Shown: piece after piece, positions 2,264 through 28,312 of the stretch
Position numbering within the stretch: the stretch's first letter is position 1
How the letters are laid out: each line of letters begins with the position of its first letter
Notes under the pieces: generated by a model
Told to the model about the DNA's origin: nothing
Database searches by the model: none
The model's input: only the letters and a program-made list of their open reading frames with translations
Program-made: the position numbers and the translations under genes
Origin: Zunongwangia sp. HGR-M22
Lineage (GTDB): Bacteria > Bacteroidota > Bacteroidia > Flavobacteriales > Flavobacteriaceae
Direction: 5' to 3'
Assembly (NCBI RefSeq): GCF_027594425.1
Contig: NZ_CP115159.1
Location: 2,221,001-2,285,000, forward strand
Length of the DNA stretch: 64,000 bases

Positions 2264-2285
2264 AATTTGAAATTATAATTTAATA

Positions 2286-5810: not shown

Positions 5811-5842
5811 AAAAGCCTCGAAAAAAATCTCGAGGCTTTTGT
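5811..5842. terminator. Bidirectional terminator between DUF4198-like gene and murA
   Basis: The inverted repeat AAAGCCTCGA ... TCGAGGCTTT is flanked by A-rich sequence on the left and T-rich sequence on the right. It serves both convergent genes. Confidence 0.85.
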
Positions 5843-5865
5843 TTTATAAATGAAAATCTTTTATT

Positions 5866-7179: not shown

Positions 7180-7195
7180 TAAAATTGGTTAAATT

Positions 7196-7831: not shown

Positions 7832-7942
7832 AAAAATAGATTTAAATTAGGTAATATTTAATTGCAGAAGTTTATTCTGCCTGCAAAATAAGAAATATTA
7901 ACTAAGTTGAATAATAATAACGGCTTTTTAGCAATAAAAGTG

Positions 7943-8236: not shown

Positions 8237-8321
8237 AATTCTTTGTTCAAAAATTTAAGGTAACAAAGATACAAGCTTTATACCATTTTTATAATCAAAA
8301 TCAAATGTCGAAATTTGCAGA

Positions 8322-8861: not shown

Positions 8862-8863
8862 TA

Positions 8864-10765: not shown

Positions 10766-10766
10766 A

Positions 10767-11711
10767 ATGAAAGATTTACGAATATTATTTATGGGAACAC
10801 CAGATTTTGCAGTAGAAGGTCTTGCAAAAATTCTCGAAGCTGGCTACAACGTCGTTGGTGTGGTAACTGCACCCGATCGACCAGCAGGACGTGGCAGAAA
10901 ACTAAACCAGAGCGCCGTTAAAAAATTTGCACTCGTTAAAGGTTTACCTGTTTTACAACCCACTAATTTAAAATCTGAAGAATTTGAAAATCAGCTTAAA
11001 GAATTAAAACCCAATCTACAGGTTGTAGTAGCATTTAGAATGTTACCAGAAAAAGTATGGAAGTTCCCAGAATATGGCACTTTTAATTTACATGCTTCTC
11101 TCCTACCCGAATATCGTGGCGCTGCACCCATCAACTGGGCTGTAATTAATGGCGAAAAGACTACTGGTGTAACTACATTCTTTATTGACGAAAAGATAGA
11201 CACTGGCGCCATTATTAAATCTAAAGAAGTAGATATAAAAGTAACAGAAAACGTTGGTGCGGTACATGATCGATTAATGCATTTGGGAGCAGACCTTATT
11301 GTAGACACCTTAGCGCTAATCGAAAATGGTGAAGTAGAAACAATTTCACAAAACAAAGAAGTGGAGTTAAAACCCGCTCCAAAATTGACCCGGGAAAATA
11401 CCAAAATCGATTGGACACAAAATACTACTGCTATTTACAATCTTATTCGCGGCCTCAACCCCTACCCTGCAGCTTGGTGTTATTTTATGAATGGAAAAAA
11501 GATGAATGTAAAGATTTTTGATTGTGAAATGCTTTTAAAAGAACATCAAGAGTCTTTAGGAAAAGTAAGTGTTGAAGATAATCAAATTAAAATAGCAACA
11601 TCAGACGGATTTATTTTGGTGAACGAAATTCAGTTACCTGGGAAACGCAAAATGAGAATAAAAGATTTGCTAAACGGTTTAACCTTAGAGAAGGATGCCT
11701 ATATGCTCTGA
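10767..11711 (+). CDS. fmt: Methionyl-tRNA formyltransferase
   Basis: 314 residues, the normal length. It formylates Met-tRNA(fMet) with 10-formyl-THF. The N-terminal formyltransferase domain shows IVFMGTPDFAV-type start (LFMGTPDFAVEGL), the catalytic HASLLPEYRGAAPINWA segment (His-x-Ser-LLP with RGAAP) and later DTG. The C-terminal tRNA-binding domain begins near residue 205. It is the last gene of the ATPase-recQ-fmt operon. Confidence 0.97.
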   Translation: MKDLRILFMGTPDFAVEGLAKILEAGYNVVGVVTAPDRPAGRGRKLNQSAVKKFALVKGLPVLQPTNLKSEEFENQLKELKPNLQVVVAFRMLPEKVWKFPEYGTFNLHASLLPEYRGAAPINWAVINGEKTTGVTTFFIDEKIDTGAIIKSKEVDIKVTENVGAVHDRLMHLGADLIVDTLALIENGEVETISQNKEVELKPAPKLTRENTKIDWTQNTTAIYNLIRGLNPYPAAWCYFMNGKKMNVKIFDCEMLLKEHQESLGKVSVEDNQIKIATSDGFILVNEIQLPGKRKMRIKDLLNGLTLEKDAYML

Positions 11712-11815
11712 ACCCTGATGAATACTGAAATCATAAAAAATCAATATTTTTCTTAATCAATTATTAACATTTTGCCAAAGTTATCAACAAAGCATCCGTT
11801 TTCCCTTGCTATTAC

Positions 11816-11845
11816 TTGCACGGCTGAGAAATCCATATAAATTTG
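11816..11845 (+). promoter_or_regulatory. Bacteroidota-type promoter of HU gene
   Basis: TTG at 11816-11818, a 19-base spacer, and TAAATTTG at 11838-11845. It lies 51 bases before the ATG at 11896, with an AT-rich leader fitting a highly expressed gene. Confidence 0.7.
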
Positions 11846-11895
11846 TAAGAGCAATTGAACAAAGTGTTTAACCAACAATTATTTAAATTTAAATT

Positions 11896-12168
11896 ATGAA
11901 CAAAACAGATTTAATCGACGCAATGGCTGAGGACGCAGGGATTTCTAAAGCGGCAGCTAAAAAAGCATTAGAATCATTTTTAGGAGGAATTGAAAATTCT
12001 CTTAAAAAAGGAGATAGAGTTTCATTAGTAGGTTTCGGATCATGGTCTGTATCTAAAAGAGCAGCACGTGAAGGTAGAAATCCACAAACTGGAAAAACAA
12101 TTAAGATTGCTGCTAAAAATGTAGTAAAATTTAAAGCGGGTGCAGATTTACAAAAAGCAGTAAACTAA
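11896..12168 (+). CDS. hup: HU-family DNA-binding protein
   Basis: 90 residues, the standard length of HU/IHF subunits. The helical half [18 protein letters not shown], the VSLVGFGSW hinge and the arm signature [12 protein letters not shown] are all present. It forms dimers that bend and compact DNA. It has its own promoter and a strong terminator, as expected for an abundant nucleoid protein. It is clearly HU and not IHF-specific; whether other HU paralogues exist cannot be seen here. Confidence 0.96.
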
Positions 12169-12196
12169 TAATTTTCAGCTTTTAAGTTAAAGTATT

Positions 12197-12225
12197 AAGG
12201 CTTTCCTATTGGAAAGCTTTTTTTT
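12197..12225 (+). terminator. Rho-independent terminator of HU gene
   Basis: Stem AAGGCTTTCC/GGAAAGCTTT with a TATT loop (one G-T pair), followed by a run of T. Confidence 0.85.
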
Positions 12226-12287
12226 ATTATTTTTTTCAATATTTTTTTTGTAAGGCTAATAATTATTAGTTAGATTAGTTAAAAAGT

Positions 12288-12854
12288 ATGCCTATGATTG
12301 CACTAAAACCCTCTAAAGGCCACCTTTTAATAGCAGAGCCTTCCATAATAGGAGATGTCTCTTTTAACAGATCGGTCGTTTTATTAGCTGAACATTCTAA
12401 TAATGGCTCTGTTGGATTTATCTTAAATAAGGTACTGGATTTCACACTTAAAGATCTTCTGCCCGATTTGAATGTAGACTTTCAAATTTATAATGGAGGT
12501 CCCGTAGAGCAGGACAACCTTTATTTTATACATCGCATACCAGATTTGATTCCCGATAGTGTAGAAATTGCAGATGGCATTTATTGGGGTGGAAATTTTG
12601 ATGCCGTAACCACTTTGATCTCTCAAAATTTGATTGATGAGAAGCAAATTCGATTTTTTCTTGGGTATTCAGGTTGGGATGCAGAGCAATTAAATGTTGA
12701 GCTAGATGCAAATTCGTGGATCGTGGTAACCAACGAAGATCAGAAAAATGTTATCGAAAGACCATACGATTCTTTCTGGAAAGACCAAATGATGCAATTG
12801 GGTGGTGAATATGTTTTATGGTCTAACGCACCAGAAAATCCTAGTTACAATTAG
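12288..12854 (+). CDS. YqgE/AlgH family protein
   Basis: 188 residues. The family hallmarks are present: KGHLLIAEPSI near the start, FNRSVVLLAEH, GSVGFILNKVL, the NGGPV segment and the GYSGWDAEQL motif near the C-terminus. YqgE/AlgH proteins are cytosolic and of unsettled function. The ATG at 12288 is followed by a second in-frame ATG two codons later (12294), either of which could be used. The upstream terminator shows independent transcription. Confidence 0.92.
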   Translation: MPMIALKPSKGHLLIAEPSIIGDVSFNRSVVLLAEHSNNGSVGFILNKVLDFTLKDLLPDLNVDFQIYNGGPVEQDNLYFIHRIPDLIPDSVEIADGIYWGGNFDAVTTLISQNLIDEKQIRFFLGYSGWDAEQLNVELDANSWIVVTNEDQKNVIERPYDSFWKDQMMQLGGEYVLWSNAPENPSYN

Positions 12855-12880
12855 GAATTTCCGCAATTGACGATTTTTCC

Positions 12881-13726
12881 CTAGCCTAATCTTGCTTTTG
12901 CATTTAACTTGGCAAGCAGATCTCTGGCTATTGAATTTTTGTATTCTTTTTTACGGTATTTTGAAATGGGCTGAATACCTACAATTACATTGCTTATAAA
13001 AAGCTCATCTGCTTTTTGCAATTCGAATGGAGAAATAGATTTCTCTTCAAATTTATATTCCTGCAACTTCTTTATAATACTTATTAATTGTTTTCTTGTA
13101 ATACCGTTTAGAGCTCCATCTGTTAATGGTGGCGTTTTAATTGTATTTCCCTTTACAAGAAAAAGATTTCCATTTAAAGCCTCTACTATAGATTTATTCT
13201 CGTTTATCAATAAACAATTGTCGTAATCATTTTCATTAGCGAATATACCACCCAAAACGTTAACTGCTTTGTTATTTGATTTGATGGTCGACAACAATCC
13301 TTTAGTCACATAATGATCTTTAAAAAGTTCCACTTCATAAAAATCATCATTCAGCACATAAAAGGAATTTTTAATTTCTGAAGTAAGAATAAAATATTCA
13401 ATATCTCGAACTTCTGGAGTATATAAGCCTCCTTCTTTTCTGAAAACTGAAAATTTAACGCGAACAGATTTCGTCTCAAGGTTATTCTCTTTTATTAAAC
13501 TCAGAATTTCTTCTTCTAGGAACTCAGGTGAAAATTGGTTTGGAATTTCCATACGCATTATACGCATAGATGCCATCAATCTAAAGTAATGATCTTCCCA
13601 AAACATTACTTTTCCGTTAATAACTCGTATTGTTTCGAAAACCGAATCACCGTAGGCGTAACCACGATTGGTAATTGATAATTTAGCTTTATCTTCTTCT
13701 ATTAGAGTTCCGTTGAAATTGATCAT
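12881..13726 (-). CDS. Aminotransferase class IV (PabC-like aminodeoxychorismate lyase / BCAT family)
   Basis: 281 residues of the PLP fold-type IV family. The N-terminal NRGYAYGDSVFETIR and the Schiff-base Lys segment LLSTIKSNN (residue about 154) are present, as are the C-terminal SNVIVGIQPIS and the NGITR phosphate-binding region. The family covers D-amino acid and branched-chain aminotransferases and PabC, which releases p-aminobenzoate for folate. Length and the FETIR signature favour a PabC-like role, but I cannot separate these. The start codon directly abuts the U-tract of a terminator hairpin (13727-13753), so its leader is unusual. Confidence 0.8.
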   Translation of the reverse strand: MINFNGTLIEEDKAKLSITNRGYAYGDSVFETIRVINGKVMFWEDHYFRLMASMRIMRMEIPNQFSPEFLEEEILSLIKENNLETKSVRVKFSVFRKEGGLYTPEVRDIEYFILTSEIKNSFYVLNDDFYEVELFKDHYVTKGLLSTIKSNNKAVNVLGGIFANENDYDNCLLINENKSIVEALNGNLFLVKGNTIKTPPLTDGALNGITRKQLISIIKKLQEYKFEEKSISPFELQKADELFISNVIVGIQPISKYRKKEYKNSIARDLLAKLNAKARLG

Positions 13727-13753
13727 AAAAAAAGCCCCGTTTTATAGCGGGGC
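13727..13753 (-). terminator. Terminator hairpin directly abutting the PabC-like start codon
   Basis: On the minus strand the stem GCCCCGC/CGGGGC with a short AT loop is followed by seven T and then immediately ATG of the downstream gene. It terminates the START-like gene, and any read-through transcript would carry the hairpin right before the start codon. Confidence 0.8.
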
Positions 13754-13778
13754 AAAGGTAAGTTTTAAATATTGAATA

Positions 13779-14168
13779 TTAAACCGATCCCAAAACCTGT
13801 TTAAGATCTGAAATCATATTTTCCCAAAGCATTTTTCCTTCTTCCACTTCGTCTTCATCTTCAGCAAAGTCAGTAATCATTATAGATACATCTTTGGTGA
13901 TATCATCTACTTGTATACGAATTTCAAAGTAAAATGGGGTGTCTTCTTCTTCCATCCATCTAAATTTCACACGCTCATCACTTTTTTTACTAACAAGCTT
14001 AGCTTGCTCTTCACTACCTTCCCATATAAAGGTAAATAATTCGCCTCGCGAATTTACATTGTCGGCATACCATTCACTTAATCCTGAAGGAGTTGAAATA
14101 TATTGATATAGCAATGAAGGAGAAGCATGTATTGGAAATTCCATTTCGTACTTTATCTTATCTTCCAT
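13779..14168 (-). CDS. START-like (AHSA1/SRPBCC) domain protein
   Basis: 129 residues with the helix-grip pattern of START-like proteins: an opening strand YEMEFPIHASPSLLYQYIS, GLSEWYADNV, and a C-terminal long helix. The very acidic segment FAEDEDEVEEGK precedes the last helix, typical of the small Bacteroidota START-like family. It probably binds a hydrophobic ligand or acts as a chaperone cofactor, but the ligand is unknown. It is divergent from tRNA-Met. Confidence 0.85.
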   Translation of the reverse strand: MEDKIKYEMEFPIHASPSLLYQYISTPSGLSEWYADNVNSRGELFTFIWEGSEEQAKLVSKKSDERVKFRWMEEEDTPFYFEIRIQVDDITKDVSIMITDFAEDEDEVEEGKMLWENMISDLKQVLGSV

Positions 14169-14251
14169 TTTTCGATTTATTAGTTTCGAGCAATATATAT
14201 ATTAATTAGTAACATTAAAAGAAAACAATTTAAATATTTTTGAAAATAATG

Positions 14252-14282
14252 TTTGCAGCATTTGAAATTGTTTCTATATTTG
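14252..14282 (+). promoter_or_regulatory. Promoter of tRNA-Met
   Basis: TTTG at 14252-14255, N19, TATATTTG at 14275-14282: a near-perfect Bacteroidota promoter. Transcription would start about 50 bases before the tRNA. Confidence 0.75.
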
Positions 14283-14339
14283 CACCCGCATTTGCAGATC
14301 ATCGCAAATGTCTTGTATAGCAGTAATACTGCAAGATAC

Positions 14340-14413
14340 GGCGAGGTAGCTCAGTTGGTTAGAGCGTCGGATTCATAACCCGGAGGTCCCGAGTTCAAAT
14401 CTCGGTCTCGCTA
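14340..14413 (+). tRNA. tRNA-Met (CAT anticodon, elongator type)
   Basis: A 74-base cloverleaf. The acceptor arm GGCGAGG pairs with TCTCGCT, with G-T at both ends of the stem. The D-arm is GCTC/GAGC, the T-arm CCGAG/CTCGG with loop TTCAAAT, and the anticodon loop TTCATAA carries CAT. The first pair is G-T, not the C-A mismatch of initiator tRNA, so it is an elongator tRNA-Met (a tRNA-Ile2 with modified C34 is the alternative). The anticodon stem has an A-C mismatch at its loop end (A31-C39). A terminator follows, and accessory DNA begins right after it. Confidence 0.93.
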
Positions 14414-14423
14414 CAGTAATAAT

Positions 14424-15361: not shown

Positions 15362-15608
15362 CTGAGAGTATCATTTGTTTATCAAATTTAATCTTTCTTC
15401 TAAATCCAAAAGAGGAAGTCAACCGATTTTATTTGATGATTATTTGTTAAAGAGACTCTTTTACCCCTAAATCTTACTTAAAACAGTAATAATATATGTA
15501 TAAAGATAGAGTATTGAGATTTTAAACATTACCTTCACTTACGCTTTTTGATGTTTTGGACTTTAAAACTGTAATATTCTTATAGTGAATAATTTTAATT
15601 CTTTAGTT

Positions 15609-16169
15609 ATGGTTTTTTATATCAAATACATGGTAAGCTCAAGATGTAAGCTGATTGTTAAACAGACTCTTAAATCTTTAAATCTTCACTCTATTTTGGT
15701 AGAATTAGGTAAAATAGAAATTATTGAAAGCATAAATGCTTTTCAGCAGGAAGAATTAAAAAAAGCACTCAAAAAATTTGGATTAGAATTATTAGAGGAT
15801 AAAAAAATAATCATAATTGAAAAGATTAAAAATCTAATCATAAATATGATTCATTACAAAGATGAATTACCAGAAGAAAATTATTCAGACTTTATAAGTA
15901 AGAATTTAAATTATGATTATACATATCTTTCCAACATGTTTTCAGAGGTAAAAGGCATTACTATCCAGCATTATATTATTCTTCATAAAATAGAAAGAGT
16001 TAAAGAATTACTTCTTTATAAGGAGCTTAATTTAACTGAAATAGCTTATAAACTTCATTACAGCAGTGTGGCTCATCTTTCCAATCAGTTTAAAAAAACA
16101 ACTGGTATTTCACCTTCTTTTTACATGAAATTAAAGCTAAAAAGAACTCAGAATTTAGAAGATATTTAA
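15609..16169 (+). CDS. AraC-type regulator with an HMA-like N-terminus
   Basis: 186 residues from ATG 15609; a GTG eight codons upstream is possible but less likely. The C-terminal half (about 95-180) is a two-helix-turn-helix AraC domain (LNLTEIAYKLHYSSVAHLS ... FKKTTGISPSFY). The N-terminal 60 residues (YIKYMVSSRCKLIVKQTLK ... VELGKIEI) resemble a heavy-metal-associated fold in which the first Cys of MxCxxC is Ser. This architecture is known from small Bacteroidota regulators in accessory regions. No effector or target is visible. Confidence 0.8.
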   Translation: MVFYIKYMVSSRCKLIVKQTLKSLNLHSILVELGKIEIIESINAFQQEELKKALKKFGLELLEDKKIIIIEKIKNLIINMIHYKDELPEENYSDFISKNLNYDYTYLSNMFSEVKGITIQHYIILHKIERVKELLLYKELNLTEIAYKLHYSSVAHLSNQFKKTTGISPSFYMKLKLKRTQNLEDI

Positions 16170-16409: not shown

Positions 16410-17552
16410 ATGAAAGTTTTAATACTTTACGATTATCCTCCTTCCCCCGGAGGTTTAGCCACTCAAGGAGATTTATTATATAGAGGACTGTTAGAATTGG
16501 GAATAGATGCACATGCTGTACATTTGGAATCTGAACAGGAAAAAGAGTGGTACTATCGATGGTTTAAACCAGATGTGGTCGTTGGGATAGGGTATTGGGG
16601 ACACACACCGCAATTGATTTTACATCCTCAACGTTACGAATTTTTAGCGGTACCATGGTTAGTAGCTGATGGTTACATCGCTAATTATCAGGAAATATTA
16701 AATAAATTACCTCTTATTTTGGTTACTTCAAATTGGGTGAAAGAAATGTACGTGCGTGATGGAATAAACCCTGAAAATATAGAAGTACTCCCTGTGGGAT
16801 GCGATACCGATATCTTTATTCCTTTTGAAAAAAATGATCCCAAAATTCTAGCGGTGAGAGCATCCTTAGGTATATCCCCAGAGCAGTTGATGATTCTTAC
16901 TGTAGGAGGAGATGCCGCCTCTAAAGGTGCTCAGGAAGTAATGCAAGCCTTAGCTATTATCAATAAAGAAGCTCCTGATTGGAGATATATTTGTAAAGTA
17001 TGGCCACAACCCAGAACAAAAGCTCAGAATTTGTTAGATATAGAAATGGCTATGCATTTAGGAATTGAAAAGCATATTACCTACGCCACCAATACTGTTT
17101 CAAGAAATTTTATGCCGTACTTAATTGGAGCTTGTGATATTTATGCTGCACCTTCTAGGTTAGAAGGTTTTGGCATGCCTCAAGTAGAAGCCGGCGCTTG
17201 TGAGAAACCTGTAATTGGAATTCGAGCCATGGGTATGTTGGACACATTAGTGCATAACGAGACAGCTTTTTTGGCTGAAGTCGCCCAGAAAATTGTTGTT
17301 AATGAAGTTATTTTAGGAGATGAATCCGGATTTGAACCTTTCCATAAAGTGCAATTCAAAACTCCTAGAACGGTAGACTATCGAGCCAATATACAAGATA
17401 TAGCTCAAGATTTATTAACCTTGATGAATGATGAAAATCTCCGTAAAGAAATGGGAGAAAAAGCGAGAAAAAGAGTTGTCGCTAAATTTGACTACCGAAT
17501 TGTTGCAAAACGTTTTGTTCAACTTGTATCTGATAAATTAGGAATTATTTAG
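16410..17552 (+). CDS. GT4-family glycosyltransferase
   Basis: 380 residues with a GT-B fold. The N-terminal part has the glycine loop PPSPGGLATQGD (residues 10-21). The C-terminal donor-binding part shows VGGDAASKG near 165 and the EX7E motif in SRLEGFGMPQVEAG (Glu252 and Glu260). There is no signal peptide or membrane helix, so it acts in the cytosol using a nucleotide-sugar donor. The (alpha/alpha)6 hydrolase gene starts five bases after its stop, so the two are co-transcribed. Donor and acceptor are unknown; the nearby GH130 gene hints at mannose chemistry. Confidence 0.9.
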   Translation: MKVLILYDYPPSPGGLATQGDLLYRGLLELGIDAHAVHLESEQEKEWYYRWFKPDVVVGIGYWGHTPQLILHPQRYEFLAVPWLVADGYIANYQEILNKLPLILVTSNWVKEMYVRDGINPENIEVLPVGCDTDIFIPFEKNDPKILAVRASLGISPEQLMILTVGGDAASKGAQEVMQALAIINKEAPDWRYICKVWPQPRTKAQNLLDIEMAMHLGIEKHITYATNTVSRNFMPYLIGACDIYAAPSRLEGFGMPQVEAGACEKPVIGIRAMGMLDTLVHNETAFLAEVAQKIVVNEVILGDESGFEPFHKVQFKTPRTVDYRANIQDIAQDLLTLMNDENLRKEMGEKARKRVVAKFDYRIVAKRFVQLVSDKLGII

Positions 17553-17557
17553 TTGTA

Positions 17558-18712
17558 ATGAAAATAGAAGAAAACGCAATTCTTAACCACACTAAAAAGA
17601 CTGCCCTGGAAATCCTACTGAATAATAGTAGAAAGTCAACAGAAGGATTGTCCCGTACTGCGGCTTGGGGATATCCAGAACCTTATACACGTGACTTGAT
17701 GTTAGCTATACTTGGCGTAGCAGTTTCCAAAAACGAAGAGTTAATTGCAAATTATAAGCATATTTTAGAAGTCTTAGCAAGTAATCAAACCCGCAGAGGT
17801 CATATCCCTTCCTTAATCAATGATAAGGAAAATCGTGGAGCTAGTGATACTACACCTCTATTTCTTTTTGGAGTTTCTATTTTCAGAAAAATTAATAATC
17901 AACCTGCTTTTCAAAAGAAAGCAGTAAAGAAAGCACTAAAATGGATGAAATATCAAAGTCCAACAGATCGTTATCTAATCGCTCAACAACCTACCAGCGA
18001 TTGGCGCGATGAACAATGGATCCTTGGCTATGGCCTTTTTGTTAATACCATTTTATATGCTGCATTGAAAGGCTTAGGTAAGAATAAAAGAGCCACTCAT
18101 TTGGCTGGGGAAATTCAATATTTAGCCATTAATAATCAATTAACAGATGATATTTTAGATGAAGATGTGCTCATTACATTAAAGCCCTATTATAATAGTT
18201 GGTCTTACAAAATTTATCATAATGATAGATTTGATTTACTTGGTAATAGTATAGCTATTCTTACTGGACTTGCTTCCCCTAAACGAGCAAAAGCTATTAT
18301 TAAATGGGTAGAGCAAGAATGCAATATAATGAAAGAAAAAAATATGCTTCGAGGAGATTTGCCTCCTAACTTTTTTCCTTTTATTCAACCCAATGATCGA
18401 GATTGGTTCGACAGATATGCACATTTTAATTTACCCGGAAATTATCATAACGGTGGTATTTGGCCTTTTATTACAGCTTTATACATAGCCGCTTTGGTAA
18501 ATATTAAAGAATATGAATTGGCAGAAAATAAGTTAATAGCGTTAGCACATCTTTTGAAATTAGCAAATCAAAAAAATAGAGATTATGGTTTTAATGAGTG
18601 GTACAAAGCTCAAGATAATACGGCAATGGGGGAAGATTGGCAAACCTGGAGTGCAGCTTTATATTTGTATGCATCCCATTGTGTAGAACAAAGAGACACC
18701 CCTTTTTTCTAA
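17558..18712 (+). CDS. (alpha/alpha)6-barrel glycoside hydrolase, GH100/GDE-like
   Basis: 384 residues without signal peptide. Motifs fit the six-hairpin glycosidases of the neutral-invertase (GH100) and glycogen-debranching (GDE C-domain) group: GYPEPYTRDLML near residue 40 (candidate acid in the RD pair), SDWRDEQW near 147, HNGGIWPF near 295 and EDWQTWSAALYLYA at the end. It is shorter than a full debranching enzyme and lacks the N-terminal domain. It is coupled to the GT4 gene upstream. A role in trimming a cytosolic glycan is inference; the exact specificity is open. Confidence 0.8.
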   Translation: MKIEENAILNHTKKTALEILLNNSRKSTEGLSRTAAWGYPEPYTRDLMLAILGVAVSKNEELIANYKHILEVLASNQTRRGHIPSLINDKENRGASDTTPLFLFGVSIFRKINNQPAFQKKAVKKALKWMKYQSPTDRYLIAQQPTSDWRDEQWILGYGLFVNTILYAALKGLGKNKRATHLAGEIQYLAINNQLTDDILDEDVLITLKPYYNSWSYKIYHNDRFDLLGNSIAILTGLASPKRAKAIIKWVEQECNIMKEKNMLRGDLPPNFFPFIQPNDRDWFDRYAHFNLPGNYHNGGIWPFITALYIAALVNIKEYELAENKLIALAHLLKLANQKNRDYGFNEWYKAQDNTAMGEDWQTWSAALYLYASHCVEQRDTPFF

Positions 18713-18763
18713 AAATAATTTTATTTACATAATTAATATTCTTTCATACATAGGTTTAAAAAA

Positions 18764-19426
18764 TTATTGTTTAAGCTTTTGTTTTTTTATCCAATTGTAT
18801 CCCTCAATTGGTTTAGTGAACTTCCAGAAAGCTTCTTCTTTTGGCGTAGTCTTCGCCTCAAAACTGGTCTTCGCAAAACCATATACTTGGGTGATGATAT
18901 CATATTTTGCATTCCACACTTTTATGGAAAGTGTCTCATGGTGTGTAGCAGATTTTATGGGTTTAGGAAAGTATTTTTTATTATTATCCTCATAAGCGAA
19001 AATCCATAATTCTTTAGTTGAAATTTTATGGTTTTCCCATAATTTTTGCACCGCTATTCCAACTTCTTCATGCCGTCGGTGACGTGTATATTCTCCTAGA
19101 GGATTATGAGTTAGAATGATATCAAAATGAACGTTAGGTAAAATATTTAAAATTTCATTTTCAACAATTTTCTCTGGTAAAGGAATTTGATCCGGGTCAT
19201 CATTTAAATTTCCCATTATTCCTTGTGCTTTGAGTTTAATAAGAACTTGCTGAAATTTTGGGGCTCTATCTATATCGTATCTTCTTGATAAGCAAGCAAT
19301 AAACCAATGGTGCTGTGGATTTTTTAGAATGAGACCTCCACACCAAAGTGTTTCGTCATCAGGGTGTGCCACTACTACAGCTATATTTTTGGGTTTATTC
19401 TCTATTTTTTCTGGTGCCATTAGCAT
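18764..19426 (-). CDS. PIG-L / LmbE family deacetylase
   Basis: 220 residues. The zinc motif AHPDDETLWCGG lies near residue 20, and the second metal-site segment THNPLGEYTRHRRHEEVG near 105 carries the typical H-x3-H pair. PIG-L enzymes remove N-acetyl groups from GlcNAc-type substrates such as GlcNAc-inositol or GlcNAc-malate. No signal peptide, so cytosolic. It stands convergent to the GH gene, inside a block of glycosyltransferases and glycosidases, which suggests that the glycan or glycoconjugate made here contains an amino sugar. Confidence 0.88.
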   Translation of the reverse strand: MLMAPEKIENKPKNIAVVVAHPDDETLWCGGLILKNPQHHWFIACLSRRYDIDRAPKFQQVLIKLKAQGIMGNLNDDPDQIPLPEKIVENEILNILPNVHFDIILTHNPLGEYTRHRRHEEVGIAVQKLWENHKISTKELWIFAYEDNNKKYFPKPIKSATHHETLSIKVWNAKYDIITQVYGFAKTSFEAKTTPKEEAFWKFTKPIEGYNWIKKQKLKQ

Positions 19427-19793
19427 TGTATTATATTTTATTATTCAAAAATCGAATTTATCCTTTATAGCCTGTTGAGTAGGAAAACCAAATTGCTAAC
19501 CGAAATTATATTTTTTTGATAGTAATTTTCAATTATTTTAAAATCTGAAACGCAATATAGGTTTGAGCTCATCTTAATTTGGGATTGGCGTAACGGTAAA
19601 TATTATTAATTTGAATAGCTACTTTATTACATTAATCATAAGATTTTTTACATAGATAACAGATACGAATATGGATATGTAATATTTAATATTAAGGGCT
19701 TAATCGTACTGTAAAATATATAAGGTTTAGTAAAATAGATGTAATATTATATCTACTATAGTTATCCATCTTTGTAAGTCTAAAATATTACAA
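19427..19793. other. Intergenic stretch, nothing recognised
   Basis: About 370 AT-rich bases between divergent genes. It must contain the promoters of the PIG-L gene and of the lipoprotein gene. I see no perfect -33/-7 pair, hairpin or repeat. CATCTTTG at about 19768 is a one-mismatch -7 element for the lipoprotein gene. Confidence 0.4.
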
Positions 19794-20222
19794 ATGATAA
19801 GTAAAGGAAAATCTTGGATGTTAGTAAGTATGCTTGCTCTACTTCTATTAACTATAATATCCTGCACCAGGAAAATTGTTTTTCAACAATCTACTATTGT
19901 ACCTGCGGCGGAAGGTTATGTGAAAATCCACACTGATGATAATAATAATTTTGTACTTGAAATAAAAATTGTGAATTTAGCCGAAGTTAGCAGATTACAA
20001 CCTCCAAAAGAAAGTTACGTCTCCTGGATGATCACCGATAAAAATGAAACTGTTAAATTAGGACAGTTAAACAGCTCAACCGGTTTTATGTCAAAACAGA
20101 TGAAAGCTTCCTTAGAAACTGTATCCTCCTATAATCCAACAAAAATATTTATTACAGCAGAGGATAACAGTAACGTCCTCTACCCCAACAAGCTTATTAT
20201 ATTAACAACTAATAAATTTTAG
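19794..20222 (+). CDS. Small lipoprotein of unknown function
   Basis: 142 residues. A basic start and hydrophobic stretch ([10 protein letters not shown]) lead to a lipobox Cys at residue 25, so it is a lipoprotein. The rest is a single beta-rich domain ([40 protein letters not shown]) reminiscent of the beta-sandwich of anti-sigma-K (RskA) C-terminal domains. It has no membrane-spanning or anti-sigma part. It is placed between the PIG-L and GH130 genes. Function not known. Confidence 0.75.
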
Positions 20223-20508
20223 ATCATTTATTATTTTCCTTTTAAATTATTTTTTAAGGAAACCAAAATCCATCTCTCCTGGTTGATTTTACTTAAAATC
20301 TAAAGACAACCTCTGCACTACTTTTCAGGAAATTTTTAAAATGTAGTATGGTAAGCAAATTACTCTTAGTCATTCTTGTTTTAAGATTCTGGCATAAGTC
20401 ATTTTAAAATGATACCACTAAAGGTAATAATTTGCAGTTATTCTAGAGGTAACACAAAAATATATAAAACTAAAATACAGTTAATTACCTTATTCACACC
20501 TTATATAC

Positions 20509-21969
20509 ATGAGAGTTTCGATTGAGCGTAAACAGATTAATTTTTCACCAGACTCTAGTCGGGTGATCGCCCGTTATTTTATGAACGGCGAATCTCGCAC
20601 CCAAAATTTAGTCAAGCGTATTCTTAAAATGAATACGATCGAAGTAAGCCAGGCATTAGAACAAACGTTAAGGGCATTCGCCAACAGACACCGTAATATT
20701 TCCCAGCTTTTTTTTAAGCATTGCGAAAACATTCGTGAGATTATTGAAAAAATGGATATTCCATTTAATACACTTTCTGAGGAGCAAAAAATGTTAATTG
20801 GATCGTACTGTACCATGGAATATTCAATCGAATCCGCAGCATTTTTTAATCCTTCGATAGTTGAAGATTTAGATCAATCCTATTTAGAAAAAGGTGAAAA
20901 ACGAGTAATTATTTCCTTTAGAGCCACCGGAGAAGGCCATATTTCTTCCCTGGTTTTCAGAAGGGGAATCATTGACGCTAATAATGATCTATTCCTTACA
21001 AAACTTGGAGATTATATAGATATGGCTGCAATGTCACGTAAAACTTCCTTTTATAAAAGTCGGTTTATAAAAAGACTTAAAGAAATGCAGGTAGAAGAGC
21101 AATACTTTAAAATAATTATGGACAAGTTACCAGACCGATTTGAACATTCTGCCTTAAAAGAATTAGTTAATAGTTTCCTTCAAAAAGAAAATGTAAATAG
21201 CGAGGCACACCGGTCTTTTGAAGAAATTAAATGGTTATTGGAATCATTTTATGACTTGCATTTTCATAAAGATTCCGATATTACAGAACGTGTGATCTTT
21301 CCTATATCAGAATCTGAAAGTAAAGGCATTGAGGATGCACGCTTTGTGCGCTTTATAGAAGATGATCAATCTATTGTATTTTATGCTACTTATACAGCCT
21401 ATAATGGGCATACTATTTTACCAAAATTAATAGCTACAAAAGATTTTTATACTTTTAGAATAATGCCATTAAGAGGTGATGGCGCAAAAGGAAAGAATCT
21501 GGCACTTTTTCCTAAAAAAATTAAAGGTCAATATGCTATGTTATCCAGGATTGATGGAGTTAATAATTATTTAATGTACTCTAAAAATACTAATTTTTGG
21601 AATAAACCAGAACGTATTCAAGAGCCTAAATTCGCATGGGAATTTACTCAAATAGGAAATTGTGGATCTCCTTTATGGACAGAAAAAGGTTGGCTAATTA
21701 TTACTCATGGTGTAGGTCCAATGAGACGCTATTGTATAGGTGCATCACTTTTTGATCTTGAAGATCCTTCCATAGAAATTGGACGACTGGAAGAGCCTTT
21801 ACTTATTCCTCTAGAAGAAGAGCGCAACGGATATGTCCCCAACGTGGTATATTCCTGTGGTTCTATAATTCATAATAATAGCTTAATTTTACCTTATGCA
21901 GTGTCTGATTACTCCTCTACTTATGCAGTGGTAGATATGACAGAATTGTTTACTGCATTAATCAACTAA
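20509..21969 (+). CDS. GH130-family mannoside phosphorylase/hydrolase
   Basis: 486 residues; the C-terminal 300 form a five-bladed propeller of GH130 type, with the catalytic-acid segment KGIEDARFVRF near residue 275 and later GNCGSPLWTE. An N-terminal helical part (1-200) makes it longer than the classic 300-residue enzymes. GH130 enzymes mostly phosphorolyse, or in reverse build, beta-mannosides such as beta-1,2- or beta-1,4-mannan. No signal peptide, so it acts in the cytosol. Its stop overlaps by four bases the stop of the convergent GT4 gene. Exact linkage unknown. Confidence 0.88.
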   Translation: MRVSIERKQINFSPDSSRVIARYFMNGESRTQNLVKRILKMNTIEVSQALEQTLRAFANRHRNISQLFFKHCENIREIIEKMDIPFNTLSEEQKMLIGSYCTMEYSIESAAFFNPSIVEDLDQSYLEKGEKRVIISFRATGEGHISSLVFRRGIIDANNDLFLTKLGDYIDMAAMSRKTSFYKSRFIKRLKEMQVEEQYFKIIMDKLPDRFEHSALKELVNSFLQKENVNSEAHRSFEEIKWLLESFYDLHFHKDSDITERVIFPISESESKGIEDARFVRFIEDDQSIVFYATYTAYNGHTILPKLIATKDFYTFRIMPLRGDGAKGKNLALFPKKIKGQYAMLSRIDGVNNYLMYSKNTNFWNKPERIQEPKFAWEFTQIGNCGSPLWTEKGWLIITHGVGPMRRYCIGASLFDLEDPSIEIGRLEEPLLIPLEEERNGYVPNVVYSCGSIIHNNSLILPYAVSDYSSTYAVVDMTELFTALIN

Positions 21970-22985
21970 TTTTGAAAATTTAGAAGCACGTTTTTATAAG
22001 CTTCTTCATAAGAAGAAATCATATTTTCCATATTAAAATTGGTTTCTGCGTGCCATCTACACTGTATAGGAGATAGTAATTCTAGTTTTTTTACGGCGTC
22101 AACAGCTTCTTGTATGGTATGCACTAAAAATCCAGAAACACCATCAGCAATTAACTCGGGCATACTACCTCGACAAAATGCAATTACTGGTGTACCGCAC
22201 ATCATTGCTTCTAGAACACTAAGTCCAAAAGGCTCTTCAAAAGAAATAGGATGTAATAGGGCTTTGGCACTACCAAGAATAAGATCACGTTCATTTTTAC
22301 CCAAATTCCCTAAATACTGAATGAAATTCCCATCGATATTAGGTTTTATTTTCGAATTAAAATAATCTTGATCCTGTATAAGGCCAGCAATTTTAAGAGG
22401 TAAATTTGCCTTTTTTGCAATGGCAATTGCTTTATCTAAGCCTTTTTCAGGATGGATTCTGCCAAAATAAAGCAAGTAGTTTTCTTTTATACTCTGAAAA
22501 GTAAAATGACTCGGATTTACACCGTGATAAATGGTATCCAGGTAAGTTAGCTCTTCATGTCTGTTTGCATTCGAAATTGAAATGTAAGCTGCTGTAGCAT
22601 TATATTTTTTATATACCGGAATAATTTTAGGCGAAGAGAAACCATGAATAGTGGTGATGATGGGAGTTGAGATAAGCCGGGAATAAGTAAGTGGAAGAAA
22701 ATCGAAATGATTATGGATGATGTCAAAATTTCCTGCTTTTTCCATCAGATTACTGATGTGTAAGCATTCCAAAACTTTAGGGTCGCTGGTTTTGTCGGTT
22801 TCGTATGGTAAAGCACAAACCGCATCTAATTTTGCTGAGGTTATAGAATTTCCACTGGCAAAAAGGCACACCTCATGACCTCGACTTACTAAAGCTTCTG
22901 TTAAAGTGGATGCAACCTGCTCCCATGGTCCGTAACTTTCGGGAGGTGTTCTCCATGCAATAGGTGCTAGTATGGCTATTTTCAT
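21966..22985 (-). CDS. GT4-family glycosyltransferase
   Basis: 339 residues, GT-B fold. The start KIAILAPIAWRTPPESYGPWE and the segment LLYFGRIHPEKG (about residue 170) are typical. The EX7E motif is in FEEPFGLSVLEAM. Closely related sequences are often annotated as sugar transferases for small cytosolic glycosides. It lies five bases downstream of the large fusion gene, in one operon with it and the 43-residue protein. Donor and acceptor are unknown. Confidence 0.9.
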   Translation of the reverse strand: MKIAILAPIAWRTPPESYGPWEQVASTLTEALVSRGHEVCLFASGNSITSAKLDAVCALPYETDKTSDPKVLECLHISNLMEKAGNFDIIHNHFDFLPLTYSRLISTPIITTIHGFSSPKIIPVYKKYNATAAYISISNANRHEELTYLDTIYHGVNPSHFTFQSIKENYLLYFGRIHPEKGLDKAIAIAKKANLPLKIAGLIQDQDYFNSKIKPNIDGNFIQYLGNLGKNERDLILGSAKALLHPISFEEPFGLSVLEAMMCGTPVIAFCRGSMPELIADGVSGFLVHTIQEAVDAVKKLELLSPIQCRWHAETNFNMENMISSYEEAYKNVLLNFQN

Positions 22986-22990
22986 GCTTT

Positions 22991-25258
22991 TTATAAAGCT
23001 TTGTCCTTTGTTATAGTTGTTAAATCATCATACTGGTAAAATTCTTCATAAGCTTTTAATACCGTTAAATGGGAAATAAGGTAGGCCAAAGAACTTTCTG
23101 CACCTTGATTCCGGTTAACTCCGTAATTTTCAAACCCATCGCAACAACCTTTCGTTTCAAAATCATATAGGCTCATCCGCAAATCGTTTTCTCCTAAGAA
23201 CCACATAAATGAATCAAAAAGTTTAGTCAAGTATTCTTTATTCCCCGTAAGAATAAAGGCCTGATGAAACATTAAGACCATAGCCATTGCATCTATAGGT
23301 TGTTGTGCGAAAAAAGAACGTTCACCATCTTTGGTATACCACTTATCGTTACCTATAACAGATAGTGTACCGTCTTTTAAAGTATGTTCTTCTAAAAACT
23401 CCATAGTAATCATCGCTATATCAATAACTTTTTTATCTGGTATTATTTGTGCTGAATGCAATAAAGCCAATGGTAGTACTCCATTATCATAGGCAAGAAG
23501 CAACTCAAACCATTTCCAGTCTTCAGAATGACTTATCTCATATTGATGAACAAGCTTAGCACTAAGACTTTTGAGAATAGCGAGCATATTTTCGTCCGTA
23601 CTATTCGTTTTTAAATAATAGCAGATACCAATAATAGTGTTGGCAATACTGCGTATCGATTGCAATTTTTCAAAATTCGGTACAGCATCAAAGAATACCA
23701 GTTTACCGGTTTGATAATATGCATCATTTGGGGCATTTCCTATAAGATAACCCAGCGCCCAAATTGTTCTACCAAAAGAATCTTCAGAACCGACTTCATC
23801 TAAAAAATTCCGATTAAAACTCAAGAAATTTCTAAAGGAACCATCCTTATTCTGCATGTAATGAATATAGCTTAGGTAAATAGGCATGAATTCTAAAGCC
23901 GTTTCATCTTTTTTCTGTTTATACGTCATCAAAACCATAAGTAATGCACGTGCATTATCATCTAAACAATAACCCTCTTTTAAATTAGGTATGCCAAATT
24001 TGGCATGTTGGATGATTCCAGTATCATCTGTTAGCCTTTTGATGTGGTTCAAGGAAAAAGGTGGTAATAAAAGTAAGTCGATGATAGTTTCCTTTTTATC
24101 TACTTTCTGTTTAGGAAACGAAAGTAAACTATTAGAAAGATGTAAGTACTTTTTACCAATTTTTGGCCAGGTAACATTTTTACCATAAGCATAAGCATTG
24201 GCCTGAATTTGTTTTAAAATTTTTGGTTGCCCCAGTAATTGATTTAATATTGCTGCTAGTTCTTCAGAATTGTTGAAATCGAACAGTTTGCCACGCTCTT
24301 CCGTTAGTAGTTCTGCAGCATGCCAGTAAGGTGTAGAAACAATTGCACATCCAGCGCCCATGGCATAAGAAAGCGTGCCACTGGTGATCTGAGCTTCATT
24401 AAGGTAAGGGGTTATATAAATATCGCAGGCACTTAGATATTTAAATAATTCTGTCTCATCAATAAATTCATTTAACATCAAAACATGACTCTGAAGGTTT
24501 AGGTTTTTAATCAGTAATTTTAAAAAATTTCTATACTCCTCGCCTTCATGACGGAAAACATTAGGATGCGTTTTTCCTAAAATAATATAAAGTGTTTCAG
24601 GGTGTTTTTCAATTATTTTTGGTAGTGCCCTAATTACGGTTTCAATACCCTTATTACGTCCTATAAAACCAAAAGTAAGTATTAGCTTTTTTTTAGTGAA
24701 TTTAAATTCAGTTTTGGCGGCCAGACGATTAAAATGAATATCGGGGACACCATGCTCTATTAATACAATTTTAGCTTGAGGAATATCATAAATAGTGGTT
24801 AGAAAAGAAATGGCTTTATGACTCATCACCACAATCTTATCCGCCATCTTGCAGATTTCTTTAAGAATAGCCTTCTCATTATAAGAAGGTGAATCAAGAA
24901 TAGTGTGTAGCGTTACTATACACGGGATTTCCAAACGATGTAAAAGAGGAAGTATATAAATACCACCAAGTCCACCATAAATTCCAAATTCATGTTCGAG
25001 AATACAAATATCTGCCCCGCTTAGATTTATAAAATTTGCAGCTTCCAGATAATCGGTTTGTTGTTCTTGGCTAATTTGTAGCTTTACTTCTGGAGGATAG
25101 TCATATTTTTGATTACCATCGTTCATCGCTACCACTAATATCTCATTACGATGCAAACCTTTGTCATCGATATCCAGCATCGATTTAGTTAAATTTTGAG
25201 TAAAAGTACCAATGCCACATTCTCGTGGTGGATATGTTCCTATATAGGCTATTTTCAT
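22991..25258 (-). CDS. Fusion protein: GT4 glycosyltransferase plus C-terminal (alpha/alpha)6 domain
   Basis: 755 residues. The first 370 or so form a GT-B glycosyltransferase: YPPRECGIGTFTQNL at the N-terminus, LTFGFIGRNKGIE near 190 and TSGTLSYAMGAG near 290, where the second Glu of EX7E is not obvious. From about 395 to 745 comes an all-helical domain (CLDDNARALL, GSEDSFGRTIWALGY, FAQQPIDAMAM, NRNQGAESSLAYL) of the six-hairpin glycosidase type. There is no secretion signal. Its start lies one base after the stop of the 43-residue gene. The fusion suggests that one polypeptide both transfers and cleaves or senses the same glycan. Confidence 0.85.
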   Translation of the reverse strand: MKIAYIGTYPPRECGIGTFTQNLTKSMLDIDDKGLHRNEILVVAMNDGNQKYDYPPEVKLQISQEQQTDYLEAANFINLSGADICILEHEFGIYGGLGGIYILPLLHRLEIPCIVTLHTILDSPSYNEKAILKEICKMADKIVVMSHKAISFLTTIYDIPQAKIVLIEHGVPDIHFNRLAAKTEFKFTKKKLILTFGFIGRNKGIETVIRALPKIIEKHPETLYIILGKTHPNVFRHEGEEYRNFLKLLIKNLNLQSHVLMLNEFIDETELFKYLSACDIYITPYLNEAQITSGTLSYAMGAGCAIVSTPYWHAAELLTEERGKLFDFNNSEELAAILNQLLGQPKILKQIQANAYAYGKNVTWPKIGKKYLHLSNSLLSFPKQKVDKKETIIDLLLLPPFSLNHIKRLTDDTGIIQHAKFGIPNLKEGYCLDDNARALLMVLMTYKQKKDETALEFMPIYLSYIHYMQNKDGSFRNFLSFNRNFLDEVGSEDSFGRTIWALGYLIGNAPNDAYYQTGKLVFFDAVPNFEKLQSIRSIANTIIGICYYLKTNSTDENMLAILKSLSAKLVHQYEISHSEDWKWFELLLAYDNGVLPLALLHSAQIIPDKKVIDIAMITMEFLEEHTLKDGTLSVIGNDKWYTKDGERSFFAQQPIDAMAMVLMFHQAFILTGNKEYLTKLFDSFMWFLGENDLRMSLYDFETKGCCDGFENYGVNRNQGAESSLAYLISHLTVLKAYEEFYQYDDLTTITKDKAL

Positions 25259-25259
25259 T

Positions 25260-25391
25260 TTATAAGGCTCTTCCGCGATTGTTTTTATTCTCTTCGCGCT
25301 TTGCTGCTTTTGCCTTGCGTTTTTCTTTTAAGCTTAATAGCGGTTTTGTCTTATCTGTTTTTCTAGTTGTATTTTTATTTTCTTTTGCCAT
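25260..25391 (-). CDS. Small basic protein (43 aa)
   Basis: An ATG at 25391 opens a 43-codon frame ending in TAA at 25260-25262, one base before the start of the large fusion gene. The protein is lysine/arginine-rich throughout (MAKENKNTTRK ... KEKRKAKAAKREENKNN) with no hydrophobic stretch. Spacing and strand place it as first gene of the fusion-GT4 operon. I recall similar tiny basic proteins in Flavobacteriaceae but no known function; RNA binding is a guess. Coding is likely but not certain at this size. Confidence 0.6.
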   Translation of the reverse strand: MAKENKNTTRKTDKTKPLLSLKEKRKAKAAKREENKNNRGRAL

Positions 25392-26296: not shown

Positions 26297-28312
26297 TCAT
26301 AAGAAACTTACTTCTATTTTTTCGCCACTTCTAATGTTTCTATCTATAATTTTTATTCCGTTGAGAGAAATACTTGATTTAATATTGTTATCTATTTGTT
26401 CCAGATTAATTGAAATACTATTATCCCCGAGATGCAAATTTTTTATACTTAATCGGGGTAATTTATCTGAAAGTTGTGGTTCAATGCTAAATGAATTAAA
26501 TCCGGTCTGTTCAAATGATAAAATTCCTTCAATAATAAGTCTACAATACAATGCACTTTCTGCTGAAAGATGCTTCATATTATTTTCGGGGTATGCTTCA
26601 ACAGCATAAGGTACATGATCTCCTAATAATCTTTTATTGGAATATTCTTCTAATTTCTCAAGCGATTGATCAAAAAAACCTGCTTTAAACGTGCCTCTTA
26701 AGGCGTATAGAGTTCCTCTGTCCCAAAAAACTTTTGGTTCATTTATATTCGGATTAAGTTCAACTAAAACTCCGTTTGAAGTCCATAGTTTATCAAGTAG
26801 TGCTGTCGCAGTTGTCTCGGCTCTGTTTTCAATGCCCATTACCAGTGGCAAACAAATCCAGTGACGAAGGTGCGTATTTCCTTTAAAATAACGATAGGTG
26901 TTTAGTCCTTCAAGCTCAGAACCAAAATAATCTTCAATATTCTTAGATAACTCAATGCTACGGTCAGAGTAAAGTGCCGACAAGCTATCGTGTCCTAGTT
27001 CTTTTGCCAAATATGAAGCATTTATTAGTCCTCCGTAATAAAGAGAACTGGTGGAAAGGTTCGCTTCACCTGTTGAAATTCTTCCTTCCATTTCGTCTGT
27101 TTCTGACAACACAACTCCTTCTGCATTAGTCTTTTTATGGCAGTAATTAATGCACCACTCAATCAATGGCCATATCTTTTGGGCAAAATCTTTATCGGCA
27201 TATCGTAATGCGAATTGCGATGCTCCATAAGCAATCATGGCGGCATCCCCTCTATCTTTTCCACAGTTTGGCAGCTCTCCGTCTATTTCAAATGCATAGC
27301 AAATAGGCGAGAAATCTTCAGGAATGTTTTTTAAAAACATTAAGTAGGCATTTTTTGCAGCTTCAATACCCGTATCGTACCCTAAAAACGGGAAAAAAGG
27401 TCCGCTATATTCTACCTGATCGTTTGCCCAAATACCAATATAATAATTTCCTCCACCGGGTGAATGTACCAATCCCATCTTCGATTCGAAAATACTTTCA
27501 GAAGCCCTGATTTTTGAAAAATAAAAAAGTTGATCGATTACAGGATCGGAAGTTTCAAGAACAAGGTTTTCTTTAACTTTACTAATAAAAGCATCCCTTT
27601 CCGCTTCAATTTGTTGAAAACGGAACCCATTTATAGGTTCATTATCGATGGCGGCTGAAAAATAGAGCGTAAAATTATAAGATGTTTTAGGGTTAAGCGT
27701 TACCTGCTTCATAGCATCATTATACACATGGGTTGTATATTTCCCCTTATAGCCAGTTATTTTTGCACTAACATTTGTTTCGCCAATTTTAAGCTCTTTT
27801 GCTTTATCCCCGATATTTGTCAATTCCCAGTTTTCAACAAACAAACGTTCGTTCATTGACGGGAATAATGTACGCTTAAGTATTATCCCTTCAACAGGAG
27901 TATGGTAAAAAGTCAGCTTCCCATCAATTTTTACTGAATCAATTTGGTTAAATATTAAATTGAAACGATCCATGGTTATTGTAGGTTCAATTTCATCAGC
28001 GTAGTTAAGCCGATGATATGCCCGGTATTTTTTCCAACCTTCTTCAATTGTTCTTAACTGTGGATATATAATTTCACGATTTATTTCAACTTCTTTATGT
28101 TCATTTGTTTTATAATAAATAATGGCAGATACTTTTTTGCCCGACATCTCAATGTTGTCTTCATGCGGATAACTATGATCCTTATCCAGTTTCCAAACAA
28201 TGCTTTGCGAAGAGCTAATTTCCCAATATTTGTCAATAGATTGATTTTGTCCCAATAAGGAGTAGGAAAGCAATAAAATGGTCTTTATTAAAAAAAAATT
28301 CTTACACTTCAT
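26297..28312 (-). CDS. Secreted six-hairpin glycosidase (rhamnosidase-like fold)
   Basis: 671 residues with an N-terminal signal peptide (ends SYSLLGQ). An N-terminal beta-sandwich covers about 25-260. An (alpha/alpha)6 catalytic domain follows from about 260 to 590 (SPGGGNYYIGIWANDQVEYSG, GKDRGDAAMIAYG, VLSETDEMEGR, FWDRGTLYALRG) and a short C-terminal beta domain closes it. This layout is that of six-hairpin glycosidases such as GH78 alpha-L-rhamnosidases and relatives. It acts in the periplasm or outside. No SusCD pair lies next to it, so it is not in an obvious polysaccharide locus. Substrate uncertain. Confidence 0.75.
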   Translation of the reverse strand: MKCKNFFLIKTILLLSYSLLGQNQSIDKYWEISSSQSIVWKLDKDHSYPHEDNIEMSGKKVSAIIYYKTNEHKEVEINREIIYPQLRTIEEGWKKYRAYHRLNYADEIEPTITMDRFNLIFNQIDSVKIDGKLTFYHTPVEGIILKRTLFPSMNERLFVENWELTNIGDKAKELKIGETNVSAKITGYKGKYTTHVYNDAMKQVTLNPKTSYNFTLYFSAAIDNEPINGFRFQQIEAERDAFISKVKENLVLETSDPVIDQLFYFSKIRASESIFESKMGLVHSPGGGNYYIGIWANDQVEYSGPFFPFLGYDTGIEAAKNAYLMFLKNIPEDFSPICYAFEIDGELPNCGKDRGDAAMIAYGASQFALRYADKDFAQKIWPLIEWCINYCHKKTNAEGVVLSETDEMEGRISTGEANLSTSSLYYGGLINASYLAKELGHDSLSALYSDRSIELSKNIEDYFGSELEGLNTYRYFKGNTHLRHWICLPLVMGIENRAETTATALLDKLWTSNGVLVELNPNINEPKVFWDRGTLYALRGTFKAGFFDQSLEKLEEYSNKRLLGDHVPYAVEAYPENNMKHLSAESALYCRLIIEGILSFEQTGFNSFSIEPQLSDKLPRLSIKNLHLGDNSISINLEQIDNNIKSSISLNGIKIIDRNIRSGEKIEVSFL

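Follow-up and report, generated by a model that had tools for sequence, protein, structure and literature searches.

The question raised by this locus is whether seven neighboring genes, read in an initial annotation as one island for an intracellular mannose-containing glycan, encode a single pathway. They lie at 16410 to 25258 of a 64,000-nucleotide stretch of the Zunongwangia sp. HGR-M22 genome (the window; contig NZ_CP115159.1, positions 2,221,001 to 2,285,000). All seven open reading frames (ORFs) are present, and the Pfam curated cut-offs are exceeded for the GT4, GH100, PIG-L, and GH130 domains that had been named. The block is not a chance assembly, as parts of it are found elsewhere together with the same partner genes, but the seven genes are not one cassette; they comprise a core coding for a long GH130 protein (GH130L) and two GT4 proteins (GT4b and GT4c), a separate rare module, and an unconserved lipoprotein gene. 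From the genes, their neighborhoods, residue conservation, and the structure of the surrounding island, we infer the donor, linkage, product, and role of the core, which probably serves the metabolism of a mannose glycoside in the cytosol and is both mobile and widely distributed.

Conservation and partners of the core genes

GH130L (486 amino acids; 20509 to 21969, plus strand) is a predicted beta-mannoside phosphorylase/synthase (Pfam PF04041, 90.4 bits against a cut-off of 26, E = 1.4e-25) and is organized tail to tail with two minus-strand genes, GT4b (21966 to 22985; Glycos_transf_1, 1.1e-23) and GT4c (22991 to 25258; Glycos_transf_1, 1e-19), the latter coding for a fusion of a GT4 and a glycosidase-like domain. 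The stop codon regions of GH130L and GT4b overlap by 4 bp, and 5 bp separate GT4b from GT4c. GH130L has a match in 57 of 395 sampled Bacteroidota genomes at an E value of 1e-40 (18 of 299 in the host's family), and GT4c is in 73 of the 395 at 1e-60, all of these counts including the host genome itself. The initial annotation had allowed that its gene group might prove peculiar to this genome, and for the core this is clearly not so. Without the host genome, GH130L is found in 56 genomes, GT4c in 72, and both in 46, compared to approximately 10 expected (Fisher odds ratio 55, P = 1e-31, kinship among the genomes being ignored); in 28 of these 46 the two genes are no more than 10 kb apart on one contig. 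Another 26 genomes have GT4c only, and of the 20 fetched, 16 have a short GH130 gene directly beside it; the remaining four, three of them from one genus, have no adjacent short GH130. Of 43 tabulated loci, 19 share the tail-to-tail layout of GH130L and GT4c, with GT4b present or not and once with a short GH130. Pairwise distances of GH130L correlate with those of GT4c (r = 0.65, 34 loci) and GT4b (r = 0.64, 17 loci), with 0 of 5,000 permutations in each case. The pair of GT4c and GH130L is a widely shared, and apparently undescribed, bacterial enzyme pair.

The pair is also plasmid borne. GT4c is found in 28 plasmid records, 17 of them predicted to be conjugative, mostly from Alphaproteobacteria but with one Ilyobacter and one Deinococcus included. 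A long GH130 match lies within ∼150 bp in 22 of the 28 and within 3.8 to 4.4 kb in three; the others have a short GH130 at 1.5 kb, a GH130 gene 23 kb away, and none in the match list, one record each. Twelve plasmid loci (10 from Alphaproteobacteria, plus Ilyobacter and Deinococcus) were chosen and read with their annotation, and genes of mannose metabolism flank the pair in eight, six with mannose 6-phosphate isomerase, mannose 1-phosphate guanylyltransferase, or phosphomannomutase, and two with an AGE epimerase. The Sphingobium amiense plasmid has the order groES-groEL-GMP/PMI-manA-GT4c-GH130L-phosphomannomutase; GT4c is broken in the Sphingomonas paeninsulae record. The link of the core to mannose is well supported by these loci, and the cytosolic mannose chemistry proposed at the outset is supported for the core; the amino-sugar content and the role as reserve or osmolyte proposed with it are conjecture.

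These flanking genes also bear on a quite improbable alternative, that GH130L supplies mannose 1-phosphate for the GDP-mannose of ordinary envelope glycans. A Thermoanaerobacter cluster with two GH130 genes, a mannose 1-phosphate guanylyltransferase gene, and a GT4 gene has been interpreted in this way (PMC4264767), and three Sphingomonad plasmids have a guanylyltransferase gene directly next to the pair. However, such salvage requires a source of beta-mannosides, and an importer gene is absent from the window block; moreover, GT4c is too constant a partner for a general salvage enzyme.

Predicted chemistry of the core

The six enzymes of the block have no apparent signal peptide (N-termini inspected by eye), as the initial annotation had noted, and only the 142-amino acid ORF is lipoprotein-like. 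The PF04041 match in GH130L is restricted to residues 259 to 480, and the protein thus has an extra N-terminal region besides its GH130 domain. The nearest curated models are mannobiose phosphorylases, with scores below their cut-offs, and matches in the PDB include a 1,2-beta-oligomannan phosphorylase (1.4e-26) and Uhgb_MS (1.8e-23). D276 and D467 correspond to Asp92 and Asp281 in the mannose site of Teth514_1788 (PMC4264767), as placed through PDB entry 9fj8 if this is Teth514_1788 with numbering shifted by one, and N114, placed by motif only, is the likely mannose-site Asn. Each of the three is at least 97% conserved among 65 GH130L sequences, and GH130L thus has the catalytic Asp and the Asn/Asp/Asp mannose site typical of GH130. 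K329, K337, R347, and H400 agree with three solved phosphorylases and are candidates for the basic phosphate ligands that set GH130 phosphorylases apart from hydrolases, which have a pair of Glu instead; K329 and K337 are also alternative candidates, in an ambiguous alignment column, for the equivalent of BT3780 Lys199, which is linked to beta-1,2-mannoside specificity (PMC4599007).

In four loci, picked by protein length, GH130L continues into a response-regulator receiver domain (PF00072, E values of 1e-23 to 1e-28; L062:9068-10924, L069:9013-10869, L071:9100-10953, and L092:9009-10868), a fusion that is not named in the titles or abstract openings of 12 retrieved papers. A further GH130L, 68% identical to that of the window, is in a record titled as a Klebsiella pneumoniae metagenome-assembled genome (L014), and this identity suggests that the title belongs to a mislabeled bin.

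All three GT4 proteins of the block (GT4a, GT4b, and GT4c) have a Glycos_transf_1 domain above the cut-off; a regular expression for the GT4 motif was too strict to be informative, matching 14 of 34 GT4c and 1 of 17 GT4b sequences. GT4b aligns over residues 1 to 336 with TeGSS (PDB 7fg9, 1.1e-79), a glucosylsucrose synthase acting on UDP-glucose and sucrose with catalytic residues Tyr18 and Arg179 (PMC9909042). Both are kept in GT4b, as Y18 and R176, with its substrate a matter of prediction, and the cavity residue Trp10 of TeGSS is Ala10 in GT4b, which has Trp at position 11. The C-terminal domain of GT4c matches GH88 only below the Pfam cut-off, and its profile has a single PDB match at E 0.01, YPO2471 (7tem, 1.3e-22). 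In one genome (G061, L093:6546-8888) GT4c is encoded as two neighboring genes, one per domain.

These features suggest a scheme in which GT4c, together with GT4b where present, probably uses nucleotide sugars to build an oligosaccharide or polymer, the donor for GT4c likely being GDP-mannose. GH130L would add or remove beta-mannosyl residues with mannose 1-phosphate or phosphate, such that mannose could be banked and then returned as mannose 1-phosphate with no ATP spent. This glycan is probably also trimmed or cut by the glycosidase-like domain of GT4c, and the receiver fusion would place GH130L under two-component control in some lineages.

Several observations weigh against the core as a unit of mannose-glycoside metabolism, some in its chemistry and others in its neighborhoods. 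GT4 enzymes are retaining (PMC9883506, PMC9909042) and would form alpha-linkages, which GH130 is not expected to cleave, as GH130 enzymes invert between alpha-mannose 1-phosphate and beta-mannosides (PMC8950772). GH130L therefore cannot simply undo the GT4 product and must itself make or remove a beta-mannosyl part; in the simplest scheme, GH130L would attach beta-mannosyl units to, or detach them from, an alpha-linked backbone or primer made by the GT4 enzymes, much as Uhgb_MS is listed as acting on alpha-1,2-mannobiose (PMC8950772). An AlphaFold model of GH130L built with five sequences is poor (mean pLDDT 46.3, pTM 0.30), and its best-scored stretch near the N-terminus comprises portions of a helical region, between residues 28 and 110. 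The best-characterized relative of GT4b uses UDP-glucose, and for 11 of the 56 GH130L-positive genomes besides the host, the match extends over no more than about the C-terminal half of the query. Mannose-metabolism genes are absent from 4 of the 12 plasmid loci, and BLAST with alphaproteobacterial queries finds none in 65 Bacteroidota neighborhoods. In favor of the core, the window's own genome encodes a mannose 1-phosphate guanylyltransferase-type protein elsewhere (2e-86, below the model cut-off).

The neighborhoods themselves are of more than one kind, and the GH130L family is in uptake-type loci in some lineages and in GT4 loci in others. Among 60 GH130L neighborhoods, GT4c is present in 37, GT4b in 17, and a short GH130 in 23, and 11 contain no importer and no GT4c. 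Two or all three of the ATP-binding cassette (ABC) sugar importer genes are present in 15 of the 60, a catabolic setting, and all 15 also encode a separate protein homologous to the C-terminal domain of GT4c (17 loci overall; 15 match by BLAST, most within GT4c residues 424 to 743), for which the six N-termini inspected by eye are secreted or lipoprotein-like. A GH2 gene is present in 10 of the 60 loci, eight of them importer loci, and the single GH2 protein scanned has mannosidase Ig domains of the beta-mannosidase type. It is thus conceivable, if unlikely, that GH130L only phosphorolyses imported beta-manno-oligosaccharides and that the GT4 genes are accidental neighbors. However, importer, SusC/SusD, and secreted mannanase genes are absent from the window block, the importer loci have GT4c in only 3 of 15 and GT4b in none, and GT4c stays beside a GH130 gene even where the GH130 type changes (the 16 of 20 genomes above). 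Since the GT4c C-terminal domain is a cousin of the uptake-locus protein, we interpret it as a glycosidase acting on the glycan of the core.

A role in stress is not claimed for the core. Genes for Hsp20, Usp, DUF892, DJ-1, SDR, cation ATPase, and small AraC proteins are near some loci, and groESL or dnaK/grpE genes are near GT4c-GH130L on three Sphingomonad plasmids (L158, L126, and L162; two also with a universal stress protein gene), which are the 3 of the 12 plasmid loci read that have flanking chaperone genes. Such genes occur at 21 of 80 loci and in 5 of 40 control regions drawn from 20 of these genomes, a difference without significance (P = 0.10), and the queries had been picked from the loci themselves.

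The second module and the surrounding island

The left part of the block contains GT4a (16410 to 17552, plus strand; Glycos_transf_1, 1.3e-20), a GH100-like gene coding for a predicted cytosolic glycosidase related to alkaline invertase (17558 to 18712, plus strand; Glyco_hydro_100, 6.1e-13), and a PIG-L family N-deacetylase gene (18764 to 19426, minus strand; 5.1e-9). GT4a relatives with 80 to 82% identity are present in four other genomes (G070, G074, G036, and G228), all with the order PIG-L, GT4a, GH100-like on one strand, whereas in the window PIG-L is inverted and placed behind the other two. GT4a is found in 4 of 345 sampled genomes (the host included), plus G036, and this scattered presence at high identity suggests transfer of the module. 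It adjoins GH130L in G036 and G228 but not in G070 and G074, neither of which is among the 57 GH130L-positive Bacteroidota genomes, and the three genes are thus a rare module separable from the core. Together with the unconserved lipoprotein, this leads us to reject the reading of all seven genes as a single operon or pathway. In G036, a mannose 6-phosphate isomerase-like ORF (by eye; L130:2435-3406) lies ∼9 kb from the module. No plasmid matches GT4a at 1e-20; GH100-like has four plasmid matches, with GT4 absent from both of the two neighborhoods read.

GH100-like aligns with alkaline invertase through its C-terminal half alone (1.6e-8), the acid side being outside the alignment, and its E347, aligned with the FPEYY Glu of the invertase, is invariant in all five sequences, as are the PIG-L motifs AHPDDE and, later, RHEE, which supply the AHPDDE and distal His expected of the family. 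GT4a weakly matches Tll1590 (5.6e-7), a sucrose-phosphate synthase of Thermosynechococcus (PMC9909042). The module probably handles a second small glycoside, with synthesis, cleavage, and de-N-acetylation steps, or else decorates the glycan of the core. These relatives also raise the possibility, which we regard as doubtful, that the product is a small compatible solute and not a polymer, with the GT4 enzymes making a sucrose- or mannosylfructose-like heteroside that GH100-like and GH130L recycle. The closeness of GT4b to a glucosylsucrose synthase with both catalytic residues kept, the Tll1590 match, the invertases that are the solved GH100 relatives, and a kdp K+ uptake operon on the same island (by eye) all fit this; the block, however, has no visible phosphatase gene of the sucrose-phosphatase kind, GH130 substrates are beta-mannosides and not such heterosides, and GT4a, in only 3 of 344 other genomes, is far rarer than the core.

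The remaining gene of the block codes for a small putative lipoprotein of 142 amino acids with a lipoprotein-like start by eye (19794 to 20222, plus strand); it has no Pfam or NCBIfam match and no BLAST match in 65 GH130L neighborhoods. Three GT4 genes together with a lipoprotein gene would be in keeping with envelope or exopolysaccharide synthesis, but this is very improbable, as the block has no initiating transferase, flippase, polymerase, or exporter gene, the lipoprotein is unconserved, and a cytosolic GH130 has no role there. GT4a and GH100-like (5 bp gap, both rightward) form one transcription unit-like group, GT4c and GT4b another, and PIG-L, the lipoprotein, and GH130L further separate ones; the consensus Bacteroidota promoter motif has four matches, compared to 3.96 expected, none immediately before any gene of the block. 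Downstream, at 26297 to 28312, is a gene for a 671-amino acid protein with a signal-like N-terminus and, by eye, the look of an alpha/alpha-barrel glycosidase, with no Pfam or NCBIfam match.

The block was described as lying directly behind tRNA-Met (14340 to 14414, plus strand; ARAGORN); it is near it, 2.0 kb downstream, but a gene for a small AraC-type regulator stands between (15585 to 16169, plus strand; HTH_18, 2.7e-17). As a raw count, 7 of 80 loci have a relative of this regulator close to GH130L or GT4c, compared to 0 of 40 control regions. The last 43 bases of tRNA-Met (14372 to 14414), the attachment site of the island, recur without mismatch 103.5 kb away (84% identity over 140 bp overall), with a tyrosine-integrase gene adjoining the second copy, and delimit an island of ∼103 kb that spans the window from 14340 to 64000 and continues to C1:2338942 of the genome. 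Between the repeats are genes for TraG, TraM, DUF4138, a coupling protein, and DUF5712, which we take to be of the mobilization type. The block is thus cargo of an island at tRNA-Met resembling an integrative conjugative element, with a tRNA-end repeat, an integrase, and mobilization and transfer genes. Several insertion sequence elements are further cargo, and a DUF892 (YciF-type) gene of which only the C-terminal part is present is at 46980 to 47279. Five of five congeners keep the genes up to tRNA-Met with 82 to 87% DNA identity, and in none are the block genes found behind it by tblastn (∼10 to 38 kb fetched from each), where one (G004) has the same mobilization genes; none of the five has GH130L at 1e-20. 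Composition shows no sign of transfer, as the GC contents of the block and of the host side (1 to 14339) are equal at 34.1%.

Comparison with known systems

If the unit of GT4c and GH130 works as proposed, a reserve or solute of this kind would exist in a sizeable fraction of Bacteroidota and would also be encoded by plasmids from other phyla, and many GH130 genes annotated as diet related would need re-reading; the receiver fusion of a glycoside phosphorylase would tie signaling directly to carbon storage. Nothing closer than the systems below was found in the literature searched, which covers Creative Commons-licensed PubMed Central papers only and makes this a weak negative. The initial annotation knew of no bacterial pathway with exactly this set, which needs qualifying, as the Thermoanaerobacter cluster Teth514_1786-1789, with a GT4, a mannose 1-phosphate guanylyltransferase, and two GH130 beta-1,2-mannoside phosphorylases (PMC4264767), is a partial precedent, and the idea is thus not wholly new. 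It shares with the window the presence of GT4 and GH130 together, and the nearest solved relatives of GH130L are of that type. However, its GH130 proteins are short, it also contains an ABC importer and a GH5 and is read as GDP-mannose salvage, and the available portion of that paper makes no mention of a GT4-glycosidase fusion such as GT4c.

Uhgb_MS is a GH130 enzyme that builds beta-1,2-mannosides from mannose 1-phosphate and also acts on alpha-1,2-mannobiose (PMC8950772). It is among the PDB matches of GH130L but is shorter and comes from an uncultured bacterium of the gut. We know of no partner GT4 for it. TeGSS resembles GT4b over nearly its full length with catalytic residues kept, and differs in acting on sucrose with UDP-glucose and in the cavity residue at position 10.

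The mycobacterial methylmannose polysaccharides (MMPs) are intracellular mannose polymers, cytoplasmic according to a separate abstract, made with the GDP-mannose-dependent GT4 enzyme ManT and recycled by the (alpha/alpha)6 hydrolase MmpH (PMC9883506). GT4c joins a GT4 and a glycosidase-like domain in one protein, which recalls this pairing, but MMPs are encoded by a four-gene cluster with methyltransferases, which the window block does not have, and GH130 is not mentioned in the available part of that account; furthermore, the GT4c C-terminal profile matches 7tem alone in the PDB.

The mannogen of Leishmania is an intracellular beta-1,2-mannan on which GH130-fold GT108 dual transferase-phosphorylases act with mannose 1-phosphate (PMC8950772). 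GH130-fold enzymes and, as predicted for the core, an intracellular mannoside are common to both, and the core is possibly a bacterial counterpart. GT108 is a CAZy family separate from GH130, whereas the core consists of GH130 plus GT4 enzymes, is not assigned to GT108, and would make a putative polymer at most. We therefore put forward as tentative, possible rather than probable, a bacterial mannogen, a mannose polymer of mixed alpha/beta linkage in the cytosol. A long GH130 and a GT4-glycosidase fusion would assemble it and recycle it by phosphorolysis, in a system that would be widespread, horizontally mobile, and in some lineages under direct two-component control through the receiver domain on the phosphorylase. 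Cytosolic mannose reserves with GH130-fold recycling are so far known in Leishmania, and the mycobacterial MMPs represent a different chemistry.

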